From Terriglobales bacterium (lineage in GTDB: Bacteria; Acidobacteriota; Terriglobia; Terriglobales; Acidobacteriaceae), in assembly GCA_025934735.1 (NCBI GenBank), contig JAICWP010000004.1, positions 62,001 to 126,000 on the forward strand: DNA of 64,000 nt. The letters run 5' to 3'. Both the position numbers and the translations under genes were made by a program. Below, piece by piece: positions 48,283 through 52,293 of the stretch (its first letter is position 1; each line of letters starts with the position of its first letter). Below the pieces are notes generated by a model. That model saw nothing but the letters and a program-made list of their open reading frames with translations, made no database searches and had not been told where the DNA came from.

Positions 48283-48366
48283 GGTAGCTTACTGGCTAGT
48301 TGGCAGGCTGCTTTAACCGGCCTGCCTGAGCTAAATAGCTAGATAGCTAGTCAGCCAATTAGCTTT
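48283..48366. repeat. Imperfect inverted repeat between convergent genes
   Basis: A core hairpin GGCAGGC (48302-48308) / GCCTGCC (48320-48326) is flanked by related arms AGCTTACTGGCTAGTTGGC and, on the other strand, AGCTAATTGGCTGACTAGC. It probably serves as a bidirectional terminator and belongs to the same word-repeat family as the gaps at 36331 and 56541. Confidence 0.55.
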
Positions 48367-49828
48367 CTTCCAGCGCGTGCGCCAGCCGCTCCACGCCGCT
48401 GCGCAGTTCGGCAACATCCATGGCGGCAAAGCCCAGGAGCAGGCCTTTGCTTCTGGGGGCCCGCGAATAGCGGCTCAGCGGAACAACTTCCACGTCGTGC
48501 CGGGCGGCGGCAGCCGTAGCCTGTTCCGCGCTAAGCTTGCCTTGCAGCCAGCCCACGGTCTGCAAACCGGCTTCAACCGGCGGGATTTCCAGGAGCCCGC
48601 CGAGGCGGCTATGAGCGGCCTCCAATAAACCGGCCAGCCGCTCCGCGTAGAGCTCGCGCATGCGTCGGATGTGGCGAGCAAAGTGGCCTTCGCTGATGAA
48701 GTCGCAGAGGATTGCCTGGTCCATCAGGGGAGGATGATGCGTGCTGGAGGACTCAGCGGCCGCGAATGCCTCCACCAAATCCGGCGGAATTACCACATAG
48801 CCCAGGCGGAGGGCAGGGAAGAGAACGTCGCTGAAGCTGCCGGAAAAAATGACGACCCCGCTGCGGTCCAGGCCCTGCATGGCCGGAATGGGACGGCCAG
48901 AATAACGGTACTCGCTGTCATAATCGTCTTCGAAGATCAGTGCGCCGGACTCGCGCGCCCATTCCAGCACCTCCAGGCGGCGGCGCAGGCTCATGGTCAC
49001 ACCTAGGGGAAACTGGTGAGCGGGAGTGACGTAGACCAGCTTGGCGCGCCGCCAGCGCCGTTTTCCGAAGTGCAGGTCTAAGCCCTCGCTATTCACCGGC
49101 ACAGCGCAAATTCTGGCGCCGACCGAGCGGAACACGATGGCGGCACGGGGATAGCCGGGTTCTTCCATCCACACCGGGTCGCCGGGATTGAGCAGCAGGT
49201 GGGCGGTGCGATCCAGCGCCTCCTGCACGCCAGAAACGATGATTACCTGCTCGGGCGCGCACTTCACGCCACGCGAGGTGTTCAGATATTCGGCCACAGC
49301 CTGGCGCAGCGGCATATAGCCTAGAGGGTCGCCGCCGGCCAGCAAACGCCAGGAGACGCGGCGCAGGCGCCGGGCGGCTACCTGTGCCCACAAGGCCGTG
49401 GGAAAGGAATCAAGGGCCGGCAGATTGGCGCGGAATGCCCGGGCAGGGCCGCGCTCGATCACCGGCATGGGCTCGAGGCGGCGGGCATAGTCGGAGAGCG
49501 CTGGGCGGCGACGGCGCGCGCTACCTTGCGCCTTTACCCGGCTCACCTGCAGCAATTCCTCGGGCAGCACCTGGCTGACGTAGGTGCCGGAGCCGGTTCG
49601 TCCTTCAACGTAGCCTTCGGAGCCGAGTTGATCGAAGGCGGCCACAATCGTGCCCCGGGAGAGCCCGTACTCGCGGGCCAGGTCGCGCGTGGCCGGGAGG
49701 CGCGCTCCAGGCTGCAACCGGCCGGCCAGGATGGCGGAACGCAGCTCTTCATAAAACCAACGAAAGCGCCGCCCCGGGGGTGGTGGTTGCGGTAGCGGCA
49801 AGGGCAGGGTCGTGGCCTGTTTAGGCAC
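48359..49828 (-). CDS. MocR/PdxR-type regulator (GntR helix-turn-helix + aminotransferase fold) lacking the PLP lysine
   Basis: A 489-residue MocR protein. A GntR winged helix (residues 22-88: [20 protein letters not shown], then [19 protein letters not shown]) is joined by a short basic linker to a type I aminotransferase domain. The domain keeps [24 protein letters not shown] and LFPALRLGY, but the lysine that forms the PLP aldimine (FSK in GabR) is D334 in [12 protein letters not shown] (codon at 48827-48829). Divergence from pdxS across 91 bp strongly suggests control of vitamin B6 synthesis. GTG 49828 gives normal family length; the open frame extends 117 codons upstream across pdxS. Confidence 0.88.
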
Positions 49829-49831
49829 CCG

Positions 49832-49861
49832 TAAATGGTACAGTAAAGATCGTCTAAATGG
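49832..49861. promoter_or_regulatory. Candidate MocR operator: two TAAATGG direct repeats
   Basis: TAAATGGTAC (from 49832) and TAAATGGACC (from 49855) are 23 bp apart in the 91-bp gap between the divergent regulator and pdxS. Direct repeats about two turns apart are the usual binding pattern of MocR/PdxR dimers. GGACC is repeated at 49860 and 49873. Confidence 0.5.
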
Positions 49862-49919
49862 ACCTTCTTCAAGGACCAATCTTTCATTTATCCTGATGAA
49901 AGAGGCGAGGAGCACTGAC

Positions 49920-50837
49920 ATGTCAGAGAAGAACGGGAGCGGCAGCCTGCGGCTGAAGACCGGGCTGGCGGAGATGCTGAAGGGCGGCGTGATCATGGAC
50001 GTGACCAACGCCGAGCAGGCGACAATTGCCGAGCGCGCCGGGGCAGTAGCAGTCATGGCGCTGGAGCGGGTGCCGGCGCAGATTCGCGCCGAAGGCGGCG
50101 TGGCCCGCATGGCCTCGCCCAAAAAGATCCGCGAAATCATGGAAGCAGTGGATATTCCGGTGATGGCCAAGTGCCGCATCGGCCACTTCGCCGAAGCGCA
50201 GATCCTGCAGGCGCTGGGCGTGGACTACATTGATGAGTCGGAGGTGCTCACGCCCGCCGATGAAGCCCACCACGTGGATAAGCACGGCTTCACCGTGCCC
50301 TTCGTCTGCGGCGCGCGCAACCTGGGCGAGGCTCTGCGCCGGATTGCAGAGGGCGCGGCCATGATCCGCACCAAGGGCGAGGCCGGCACCGGAGATGTGG
50401 TGCATGCGGTGAAGCACATGCGCCAGATCATGCAGGAAATGCGCGAGCTTACTGTGCTTCGCGATGAGGAGCTTTATGCCCGCGCCAAGGACCTGCAGGC
50501 GCCCTACGAACTGGTGCGCCTGGTGGCGCGGGAAGGGAAGCTGCCCGTGCCCAACTTCTCTGCCGGCGGTATTGCAACCCCGGCCGATGCCTCTTTGGTG
50601 ATGCAACTGGGCGCCGAGTCGGTGTTCGTGGGTTCCGGCATTTTCATGCAGGACTCGAGCAACTTCGCGCCGCCGGAAGAGGCGGAGCGACGCGCCCGGG
50701 CGATTGTGCGCGCCACCACCCACTACAACGATCCTAAAGTATTGCTTGAAGTCTCCGAGGACCTGGTGGGCGCCATGAAAGGGCTGGCGGTGGCGGCGAT
50801 TGCGGAATCGGAGATGCTGCAGAAGCGAGGCTGGTAG
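49920..50837 (+). CDS. pdxS: Pyridoxal 5'-phosphate synthase subunit PdxS
   Basis: A 305-residue (beta/alpha)8 lyase subunit that makes PLP from ribose 5-phosphate, glyceraldehyde 3-phosphate and ammonia supplied by PdxT. Catalytic lysines are K84 (VMAKCRIGH) and K152 ([10 protein letters not shown]), with D27 (MDVTN) also present; this matches K81/K149 of B. subtilis with an offset of three. GAGGAG lies before the ATG at 49920. Divergent from the MocR gene, and followed by a PPOX-fold gene and pdxT. Confidence 0.96.
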
Positions 50838-50866: not shown

Positions 50867-50966
50867 GCTGGCGGCTTAGCCGGTCGGCTCGGTTGCTGAT
50901 AACACGGTGCTCTCGAGGGGCTGAATGCTAAGTGCTGATTGCTGAGTGCGCCTTTACGGAAAACAT

Positions 50967-51626
50967 ATGCCTGAAACCCTGCTCACCTCTCGCACCACGC
51001 TTGGCCGCCATCCGGAACGTGGCGCGCACGAGCGCGAAACCATCAATCAGATTTTGGACGAGGGCTTCGTCTGCCACGTTGGTTTTGTCAGCGATGGCCA
51101 ACCCTACGTGATTCCCACCGGGTACGCTCGGGTTGGCGACGAACTTTACATTCATGGCTCCGCGGCCAGCCGCATGTTACGCAACCTGGAGAAGGGAATT
51201 GAGATGTGCGTCACCGTCACCCTGCTGGACGGGTTGGTGATGGCGCGGGCGGCCTTCAGCCATTCCATGAATTATCGCTCGGTGCTGGTTCTGGGAACAG
51301 CTAGTTTAGTGGAAGACGCTGAAGAGAAAATGGCCGCGCTGCGGGCCATTACCGAGCACATTGTTCCCGGTCGTTGGGCGGAAACGCGGTGGCCCACGCC
51401 GCAGGAACTGAAGGCCACCAGCGTCCTCAAGCTGCCCCTGGCCGAGGCTTCGGCGAAGATTCGTACCGGCGGACCGAAAGACAAAGAGGAAGACCTGACA
51501 TTTCCAGTATGGGCGGGCGTGCTGCCGTTCAGCCTGGTACCCGGCAAGCCGGTGGAGCATGAGGCCAGCGCGGTGCACGAAGTCCCCGAATACGTGGCGC
51601 GGTATTCGCGAAATGCCGGAAAATAG
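50967..51626 (+). CDS. Pyridoxamine-5'-phosphate-oxidase-fold flavoprotein (NimA-like)
   Basis: A 219-residue split-barrel protein of the PPOX/NimA group: INQILDEGFVCHVGFVSDGQPYVIP with the YARVGDELYIHGSAASRML phosphate-contact strand-helix, then VMARAAFSHSMNYRSVLVLG. This is the FMN/haem-binding fold, but the arrangement is that of NimA/YwmD-type proteins and not classical PdxH. Its place between pdxS and pdxT suggests a B6-related or redox role. The ATG at 50967 follows ACGGAAAA; a GTG seven codons upstream is less likely. Confidence 0.8.
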   Translation: MPETLLTSRTTLGRHPERGAHERETINQILDEGFVCHVGFVSDGQPYVIPTGYARVGDELYIHGSAASRMLRNLEKGIEMCVTVTLLDGLVMARAAFSHSMNYRSVLVLGTASLVEDAEEKMAALRAITEHIVPGRWAETRWPTPQELKATSVLKLPLAEASAKIRTGGPKDKEEDLTFPVWAGVLPFSLVPGKPVEHEASAVHEVPEYVARYSRNAGK

Positions 51627-51729: not shown

Positions 51730-52293
51730 ATGAAAGTCGGCGTGCTGGCTCTGCAAGGCGATTTTGACGCGCACCGCAAGCGACTGGAAGAACTCGGTGC
51801 GGAGGTCGTCCTGGTGCGCAGGCCGGAGCAATTGGATGAAGTGGACGCCCTCGTGATCCCCGGAGGTGAATCCGGCACCTTCCTCAAGCTGCTGGGGGAA
51901 CAAGGACTGGAGAAGCTAAAGCAGTTTGTGCGCGCCAAGCCTACTTTTGGCACCTGCGCGGGCGCCATCCTTCTCGCTAATCAAGTAGAAAACCCGCATC
52001 AACCCGGCCTGGGAGCTTTGGACATCACCATTCGCCGTAATGCCTACGGCCGGCAGTTGGACAGCTCCATCCGCCAGGCGGAAACCACGCTGGGCGGCGA
52101 CCCCCTGGAAATGGTCTTCATTCGCGCTCCTAAAATCGAGAGGGTGGGCCGGGCTGTCGAGGTGCTTGCCCGCGAGGGCAACGACCCGGTACTGGTGCGC
52201 CAAGGCAACGTCATGGCGGCAACTTTCCATCCTGAGCTGAGTGAAGACAAGCGGGTACACGCGGCATTTCTGGAATTGGTGCGGAAGCGCTAG
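51730..52293 (+). CDS. pdxT: Pyridoxal 5'-phosphate synthase glutaminase subunit PdxT
   Basis: A 187-residue class I glutaminase that supplies ammonia to PdxS. The nucleophile is C76 (TFGTCAGAILL), with the oxyanion motif GGESGTF at 45-51 and the catalytic pair H167/E169 (TFHPEL). It is separated from pdxS by the PPOX-fold gene, whereas pdxST are usually adjacent. The gap after it (52294-52444) holds another inverted repeat: GCTCTTAGCA at 52320 and TGCTAAGAGC at 52385. Confidence 0.95.
   Translation: MKVGVLALQGDFDAHRKRLEELGAEVVLVRRPEQLDEVDALVIPGGESGTFLKLLGEQGLEKLKQFVRAKPTFGTCAGAILLANQVENPHQPGLGALDITIRRNAYGRQLDSSIRQAETTLGGDPLEMVFIRAPKIERVGRAVEVLAREGNDPVLVRQGNVMAATFHPELSEDKRVHAAFLELVRKR

Follow-up and report, generated by a model that had tools for sequence, protein, structure and literature searches.

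What becomes of a MocR-type regulator when the lysine that should form its internal aldimine is missing? The accepted mechanism of these proteins is the exchange of an internal for an external aldimine, as given in PMC8739950. PMC2018728 states that the lysine is conserved in all MocR-like regulators, and PMC6677901 describes Asp279 and Lys312 as conserved in every MocR cluster. For EnuR, PMC8739950 records the lysine in 278 of the 278 proteins inspected by its authors. The literature searched on the MocR/PdxR lysine and regulators, represented largely by extracts, yielded no report of a natural MocR protein without it. The question is posed by a gene in the window, the stretch of 64,000 nucleotides from a Terriglobales bacterium that was analysed, in which a regulator transcribed divergently from pdxS (Table 1) had been proposed, in an earlier note made from the DNA letters, to carry aspartate in place of the lysine.

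Table 1. The regulator gene, its predicted control region and the neighbouring vitamin B6 genes, in window positions.
Feature	Position	Strand	Basis or remark
MocR/PdxR-like regulator gene	48359..49828	(-)	GTG start, 489 aa; start codon 49826-49828
Fold-type I aminotransferase-like domain, ~residues 125-488	48365..49456	(-)	Pfam PF00155 (residues 166-482), AlphaFold2 model, structure comparison
Codon GAC, D334, GabR K312 column (aldimine lysine)	48827..48829	(-)	translation, phmmer alignment
Codon of R207 (query), GabR L187 column	49208..49210	(-)	Arg in 18/18 lysine-less rows
GntR-type winged helix-turn-helix, residues 26-84	49577..49753	(-)	Pfam PF00392, 9.4e-16
Predicted three-box operator TGGTAC-N14-AAATGG-N14-CCAAT, intergenic	49836..49880	(+)	pattern in 18/18 orthologous regions
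TATCCT, presumed -10 box of pdxS	49889..49894	(+)	suggested by conserved TA....T, 16/18 regions
pdxS, PLP synthase lyase subunit, presumed target	49920..50837	(+)	NCBIfam NF003215 501 bits, cut-off 395
Pyridoxamine-phosphate-oxidase-like (Pyridox_ox_2-type) gene between pdxS and pdxT	50946..51626	(+)	Pfam PF12900 4.3e-47; start approximate
pdxT, PLP synthase glutaminase subunit	51730..52293	(+)	NCBIfam TIGR03800 214 bits, cut-off 105.55

The gene product has the architecture of MocR and GabR proteins, an N-terminal GntR winged helix joined to a fold-type I aminotransferase-like domain, as seen in Pfam matches, an AlphaFold2 model (mean pLDDT 89.7) and structure comparison; among 13 matches within its own genome, it is the only one to span both domains. 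The model aligns with GabR (4n0b) at Z 45.0 over 439 residues (rmsd 3.9) and with PdxR (7pq9) at Z 43.0 over 358 residues (rmsd 2.1), and Foldseek places GabR at rank 1 and holo-PdxR at rank 11. The top structural Z values, from 46.7 down, belong to plain class I aminotransferases and lie within about 2 of GabR; comparison of the predicted model thus adds only the identity of the fold, which GabR/PdxR and class I aminotransferases have alike. The curated NCBIfam PdxR model, NF052282, scores the regulator at 419.4 bits, above its cut-off of 320, and the rhizopine MocR model scores it higher still (488.6), yet under that model's cut-off of 650. The PdxR cut-off is also passed by L057, L182 and L193, three surveyed loci that all lack pdxS in the fetched flanks. 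NF052282 is thus not specific, passing lysine-less, Arg-type (arginine for lysine) and non-pdxS-linked MocR proteins alike, and the name is given too widely; because the model ignores the aldimine residue, lysine-less proteins would be named PdxR.

The substitution itself is plain. D334, within the motif GSFSD, lies opposite the FSK lysine of GabR 4n0b and of Bacillus clausii PdxR 7pq9 in phmmer alignments with the PDB sequences, ungapped nearby, and counting residues along the GabR row identifies the facing lysine as K312. The remaining motifs that the note had quoted were also found in the 489-residue translation. None of the regulator's seven lysines (residues 3, 99, 189, 256, 263, 431 and 461) falls at the aldimine position, and columns with Lys in at least 9 of 18 clade members never coincide with the GabR ligand-contact positions of Table 2 in PMC6917764. 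Since the lysine is missing, the usual internal aldimine is impossible, as had been concluded from the single sequence.

Relatives of the regulator were drawn from its own family (150 genomes), order (397) and class (299), sets that overlap, the genus containing its own genome only, and from a wider contig collection (the best 80 of 312 confirmed), and 75 further stretches were added. The relatives were sampled by similarity to the query, and the lysine-less share applies to this sample. The first set of 131 loci gave 112 distinct proteins after removal of L002 (no winged helix-turn-helix, 29%) and of 19 rows whose compared core duplicated that of another. All 94 proteins of this set that are 42-62% identical to the query carry K at the site; in the other 18, with 67-100% identity, the residue is A (10), D (4), E (3) or L (1). 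Sixty further stretches, with four duplicates taken out, raised the number to 168 distinct proteins, divided into 137 K, 12 R and 19 A/D/E/L. The last 15 stretches, compared against the earlier rows and not among themselves, supplied 6 new K, 5 new R, three K repeats and one sequence (L213) ending before the site, for a total of 179 distinct MocR proteins: 143 K, 17 R and 19 lysine-less orthologues.

Among the 19 orthologues, none of which falls below 67% identity, the residue is A (10), D (4), E (4) or L (1); every one of these pdxS-adjacent proteins is devoid of the lysine. The constant trait is therefore the absence of Lys. Aspartate, present in only 4 of the 19, is not the conserved state, and its candidacy as a conserved functional residue was rejected. 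What had been called a clear single-residue departure holds for the loss of the lysine and has to be widened in two respects, the loss being clade-wide (A, D, E or L) and accompanied by a clade-specific change from L187 to R in GabR numbering. Because the aldimine lysine, a defining feature of the group, was looked for and is absent, with D334 in the query and A, D, E or L throughout the 19 clade members, the regulator is to be filed, on its sequence, as a lysine-less PdxR-like variant set apart from the PLP-aldimine MocR regulators.

Sequencing error, pseudogene formation or chance variation would be the most trivial explanations of the loss. They were rejected as extremely improbable, as the loss is shared by 18 distinct uninterrupted reading frames (17 full length, with L066 cut by a contig end), the operator pattern described below is conserved, and dN/dS is low in the measurable pairs. 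Among the 17 full-length rows just two pairs stay below the chosen saturation limit, the rest being too diverged; by the Nei-Gojobori method they give 0.108 and 0.077 for the whole gene and, when the aminotransferase domain is taken by itself, 0.088 and 0.071. Decay can be argued from one orthologue, L144 (Glu), the nineteenth of the lysine-less proteins, whose reading frame is split by a frameshift. In L144 (positions 1111-2600) the frame of the pdxS-adjacent orthologue is broken between residues ~252 and 255, through either an assembly error or decay; the columns before the frameshift (187 and 205) are out of frame and were left unused, and the counts given for column 187 rest on 18 rows.

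All 19 lysine-less genes lie divergently beside pdxS. For the window this arrangement, which the note had also described, is borne out by the positions of the two start codons and by the NCBIfam assignment of PdxS. In 18 lysine-less loci the regulator lies upstream of pdxS and points away from it; these pdxS copies share 79-100% identity with the one in the window, and 90 to 672 bases separate the coding matches. The oxidase-like gene that separates pdxS from pdxT in the window has no NCBIfam match at 1e-10; among the 15 other loci where pdxT came within reach, the gap between pdxS and pdxT is below 200 bases in 13 and about 0.9-1.1 kb in L043 and L055. Within the fetched flanks, which never exceed 4 kb, often do not exceed 1.5 kb, and set the limit of all counts of absence, pdxS adjoins 4 of 137 K proteins (L035, L039, L092 and L093, of other lineages), none of the 12 R proteins and none of the last 15 stretches. 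In this clade lysine loss and pdxS adjacency coincide. Since regulators of two separate lineages with Lys adjoin pdxS as well, control of pdxST does not in itself require the loss.

The distribution of the loss on trees argues for a single origin. The lysine column and column 187 were excluded from a quick tree of 87 rows, in which a branch with SH-aLRT 99 sets the 18 lysine-less rows apart as a single clade, opposite 39 K rows, and one change of state suffices for lysine loss. A larger quick tree of 132 rows, thinned at 90% identity and with L066, L144 and L145 left out, again unites the A/D/E/L group in one clade (99); here three changes are needed to explain the states K, R and other, and the two that concern Arg may be two gains or a gain and a reversal. 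Because the lysine-less set forms one clade, the lysine was probably lost once, in the ancestor of this acidobacterial group. Nearest in the tree are 32 K relatives, 54-62% identical (for example L057-L065 and L125-L141), which keep the lysine and have no pdxS in the fetched flanks. Nine neighbours from seven of these near-K loci comprise four cupin genes, three DoxX-like genes, one carboxymuconolactone-decarboxylase-like (CMD) gene and one EamA gene. From the tree and the neighbours of the K relatives, it appears that the pdxST link and the loss of the lysine may have been acquired together, when the regulator of another operon was co-opted for B6 control.

The intergenic region retains a candidate binding site. 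Alignment of the intergenic regions, 16 of 18 once the two longest are omitted, shows mostly diverged DNA with three conserved islands, TGGTAY, AAATGG and CCANT; a TA....T comes after them. A first version of the pattern was found in 10 of 18 lysine-less regions and also in K rows L036, L092 and L093. The final pattern was fitted after the alignment, with the third box changed and AAATGG required, and as fitted it occurs in 18 of 18 lysine-less regions; it is also present in 10 of 94 K upstream regions (L036, L092 and L093 no longer among them) and in none of 3600 single-base shuffles of 300-base regions. All 10 pattern-bearing K rows fall among the 32 near relatives; the pattern is visible upstream of L144 too, where it was left uncounted. 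A stricter version, scored by exact matches only, has one match in the 4.94-Mb genome, at this locus, and none in a reversed control. Among the seven near-K loci scanned for neighbours (L057-L061, L064 and L087), the pattern is present at L058, L060 and L064.

Two direct boxes and one inverted box constitute the commonest type of MocR operator in PMC5320631, a survey figure of 103 regulogs and 245 regulons. PdxR of Bacillus clausii, Corynebacterium glutamicum and Listeria shares with the window protein its architecture, its divergence from pdxST and its direct and inverted operator boxes, the last two being features for which the window locus qualifies by sequence alone. PdxR has the aldimine lysine, whereas the window protein does not, and the solved PdxR is about 30% identical to it. 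PMC5320631 describes apo-PdxR of B. clausii, C. glutamicum, L. monocytogenes and S. pneumoniae as an activator of pdxST that represses itself, with PLP acting as an anti-activator. In the window the pattern starts seven bases beyond the start codon of the regulator, a placement of the predicted operator that fits autorepression.

If the lysine is gone, what remains of the cofactor pocket? GabR of Bacillus subtilis shares with the window protein the winged helix, the aminotransferase-like domain and the ring, phosphate and pyridine-nitrogen residues. In query and GabR numbering, respectively, the equivalences are Y226 and Y205, F273 and F250, D301 and D279, Y303 and Y281, R341 and R319, and R453 and R430, and the ring, phosphate and pyridine-nitrogen contacts given in Table 2 of PMC6917764 are present in the query as Y226, F273, D301, Y303 and R341. 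None of the 18 lysine-less rows departs from the equivalents of Y205, D279, Y281, R319, F250 and H248, so that the other PLP contacts of MocR proteins (Y205, D279, Y281 and R319) are each retained in full, and D279, Y281, R319 and F250 are kept in all 19 proteins. Of the three options that the note had offered, the retained pocket and operator favour, on sequence grounds, non-covalent binding of PLP or sensing of another vitamer over a locked state.

A conserved pocket might also be kept for its structure, in a regulator blind to ligand and locked in an apo-like state, self-repressing and holding pdxST on at a fixed level. Such a protein has precedents of a kind in mutants from which the equivalent residue was removed: EnuR K302H represses constitutively and shows no PLP colour (PMC8739950), MpaR K314A has no detectable target activity (PMC10790758) and BioL K340A phenocopies the deletion (PMC12915131). 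These are man-made losses of function, in contrast to a natural loss spread over a whole clade. The loss of normal regulation in these mutants, the activator role of apo-PdxR, and the occurrence of four different residues at the site, which suggests relaxed constraint where the chemistry was lost, speak for a locked form. It is nonetheless somewhat unlikely, as the ring, phosphate and pyridine-nitrogen contacts are invariant across the clade down to about 67% identity to the query, and the dN/dS of 0.07-0.09 for the domain in two pairs goes beyond the needs of a dimer scaffold alone.

The carboxylate side of the pocket bears on a different possibility, that the regulator senses an aminated cofactor, PMP or a PLP-amino-acid Schiff base that the lysine would displace. 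The lost lysine and the kept carboxylate arginine would then make a pocket like that of an external aldimine and link B6 synthesis to amino nitrogen. Aminotransferases in which the lysine has been changed to alanine hold PMP and external aldimines. In GabR, R430 contacts the carboxylate of GABA (Table 2 of PMC6917764), and its column, R453 in the query, is Arg in 16 of 17 lettered lysine-less rows, versus 15 of 32 near K and 21 of 62 other K relatives. The second carboxylate contact tells against an aminated ligand, since the GabR R207 column is Gly in 16 of 18 lysine-less rows, as it is in 32 of 32 near K and 49 of 62 other K rows, and the GabR H114 column is Ala or Pro in 18 of 19, with one gap. 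The query's own Arg at the GabR R207 column is unusual within its clade. Sensing of an aminated cofactor is an unlikely reading, and its more specific form, in which Schiff-base chemistry would have been given up and an aminated B6 phosphate (PMP or a PLP-amino-acid imine) would be read reversibly and non-covalently through the carboxylate arginine and the new arginine at query residue 207, is decidedly unlikely. If it were true, PLP synthesis would follow the ratio of cofactor forms, not free PLP.

That new arginine lies in the GabR L187 column, where each of the 94 K rows has Leu, Ile or Val and none has Arg. Besides the lysine, it is the only column in the compared list that splits lysine-less from K rows without exception, and the clade-specific Arg is possibly linked with the loss of the lysine. 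It could be supposed that query R207 compensates, reaching the pocket and partly replacing the lysine in holding the cofactor or the lysine strand. The perfect split of 18 lysine-less rows from 94 K rows is what recommends the idea; in the separate clade with Arg at 312, column 187 is still Leu, Ile or Val in all 12 aligned rows, and Arg does not form the usual PLP Schiff base, which together make compensation very improbable. The helix that carries R207 (SGVQEALDR) presumably begins near the phosphate end of the pocket, a placement taken from fold-type I structures. R207 as a proven pocket residue was set aside, as it is placed by sequence column only.

The preferred reading, with a probability of about 0.5, is that the protein is a functional PdxR-like regulator of pdxST that binds pyridoxyl phosphate reversibly and without a Schiff base. 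The regulator would bind the three-box operator between its own gene and pdxS, repressing itself and activating pdxST as apo-PdxR does elsewhere. A pyridoxyl 5'-phosphate would still enter its aminotransferase-like domain, where an aromatic cage, the arginine that binds the phosphate and the aspartate at the pyridine nitrogen would hold it with no covalent bond to the protein. Without that bond the ligand would bind reversibly, probably more weakly or faster than in PdxR, and an occupied pocket would lower the activation of pdxST. We infer the binding of the operator, the binding of a B6 phosphate, the identity of the ligand as PLP and the sign of the response; that the sign is that of PdxR is an assumption here, since the fetched flanks of the closest K relatives lack pdxS and, where scanned, hold other genes. 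By analogy with PdxR, the same control exerted through reversible binding would most simply account for the kept operator, gene order and non-covalent contacts. Counted against this reading are the loss of normal function in the lysine mutants of EnuR, MpaR and BioL and the possibility that pocket residues could persist for the fold or the dimer after PLP binding had gone.

That the lysine-less clade keeps its operator and the rest of its pocket suggests that a MocR protein can be retained as a regulator without aldimine exchange. The clade constitutes a natural test of what the MocR lysine is for. It differs from GabR in lacking K312 and in having mostly Gly at R207, Ala or Pro at H114 and Arg at L187. 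From its near K relatives, 10 of 32 of which share the operator pattern, it is distinguished by the residue at the site and by the gene next to it.

A second natural loss of the lysine is found in the same bacterial family, which suggests that such loss is not a single accident. Arg stands in the GabR K312 column, mostly as GTFSR, in 12 of the 168 distinct MocR proteins and in 5 more, and these proteins make up a separate clade without pdxS in the fetched flanks (L180, L182-L187, L189, L191-L193 and L196 in the range L180-L196, and L206-L210; L188 is excluded). The 12 aligned rows have no Arg at column 430. Four Arg-type genes (G098:C474, G031:C1, G037:C17 and G125:C3) have one stop flagged inside the match, and L184 also has Trp for Y281.
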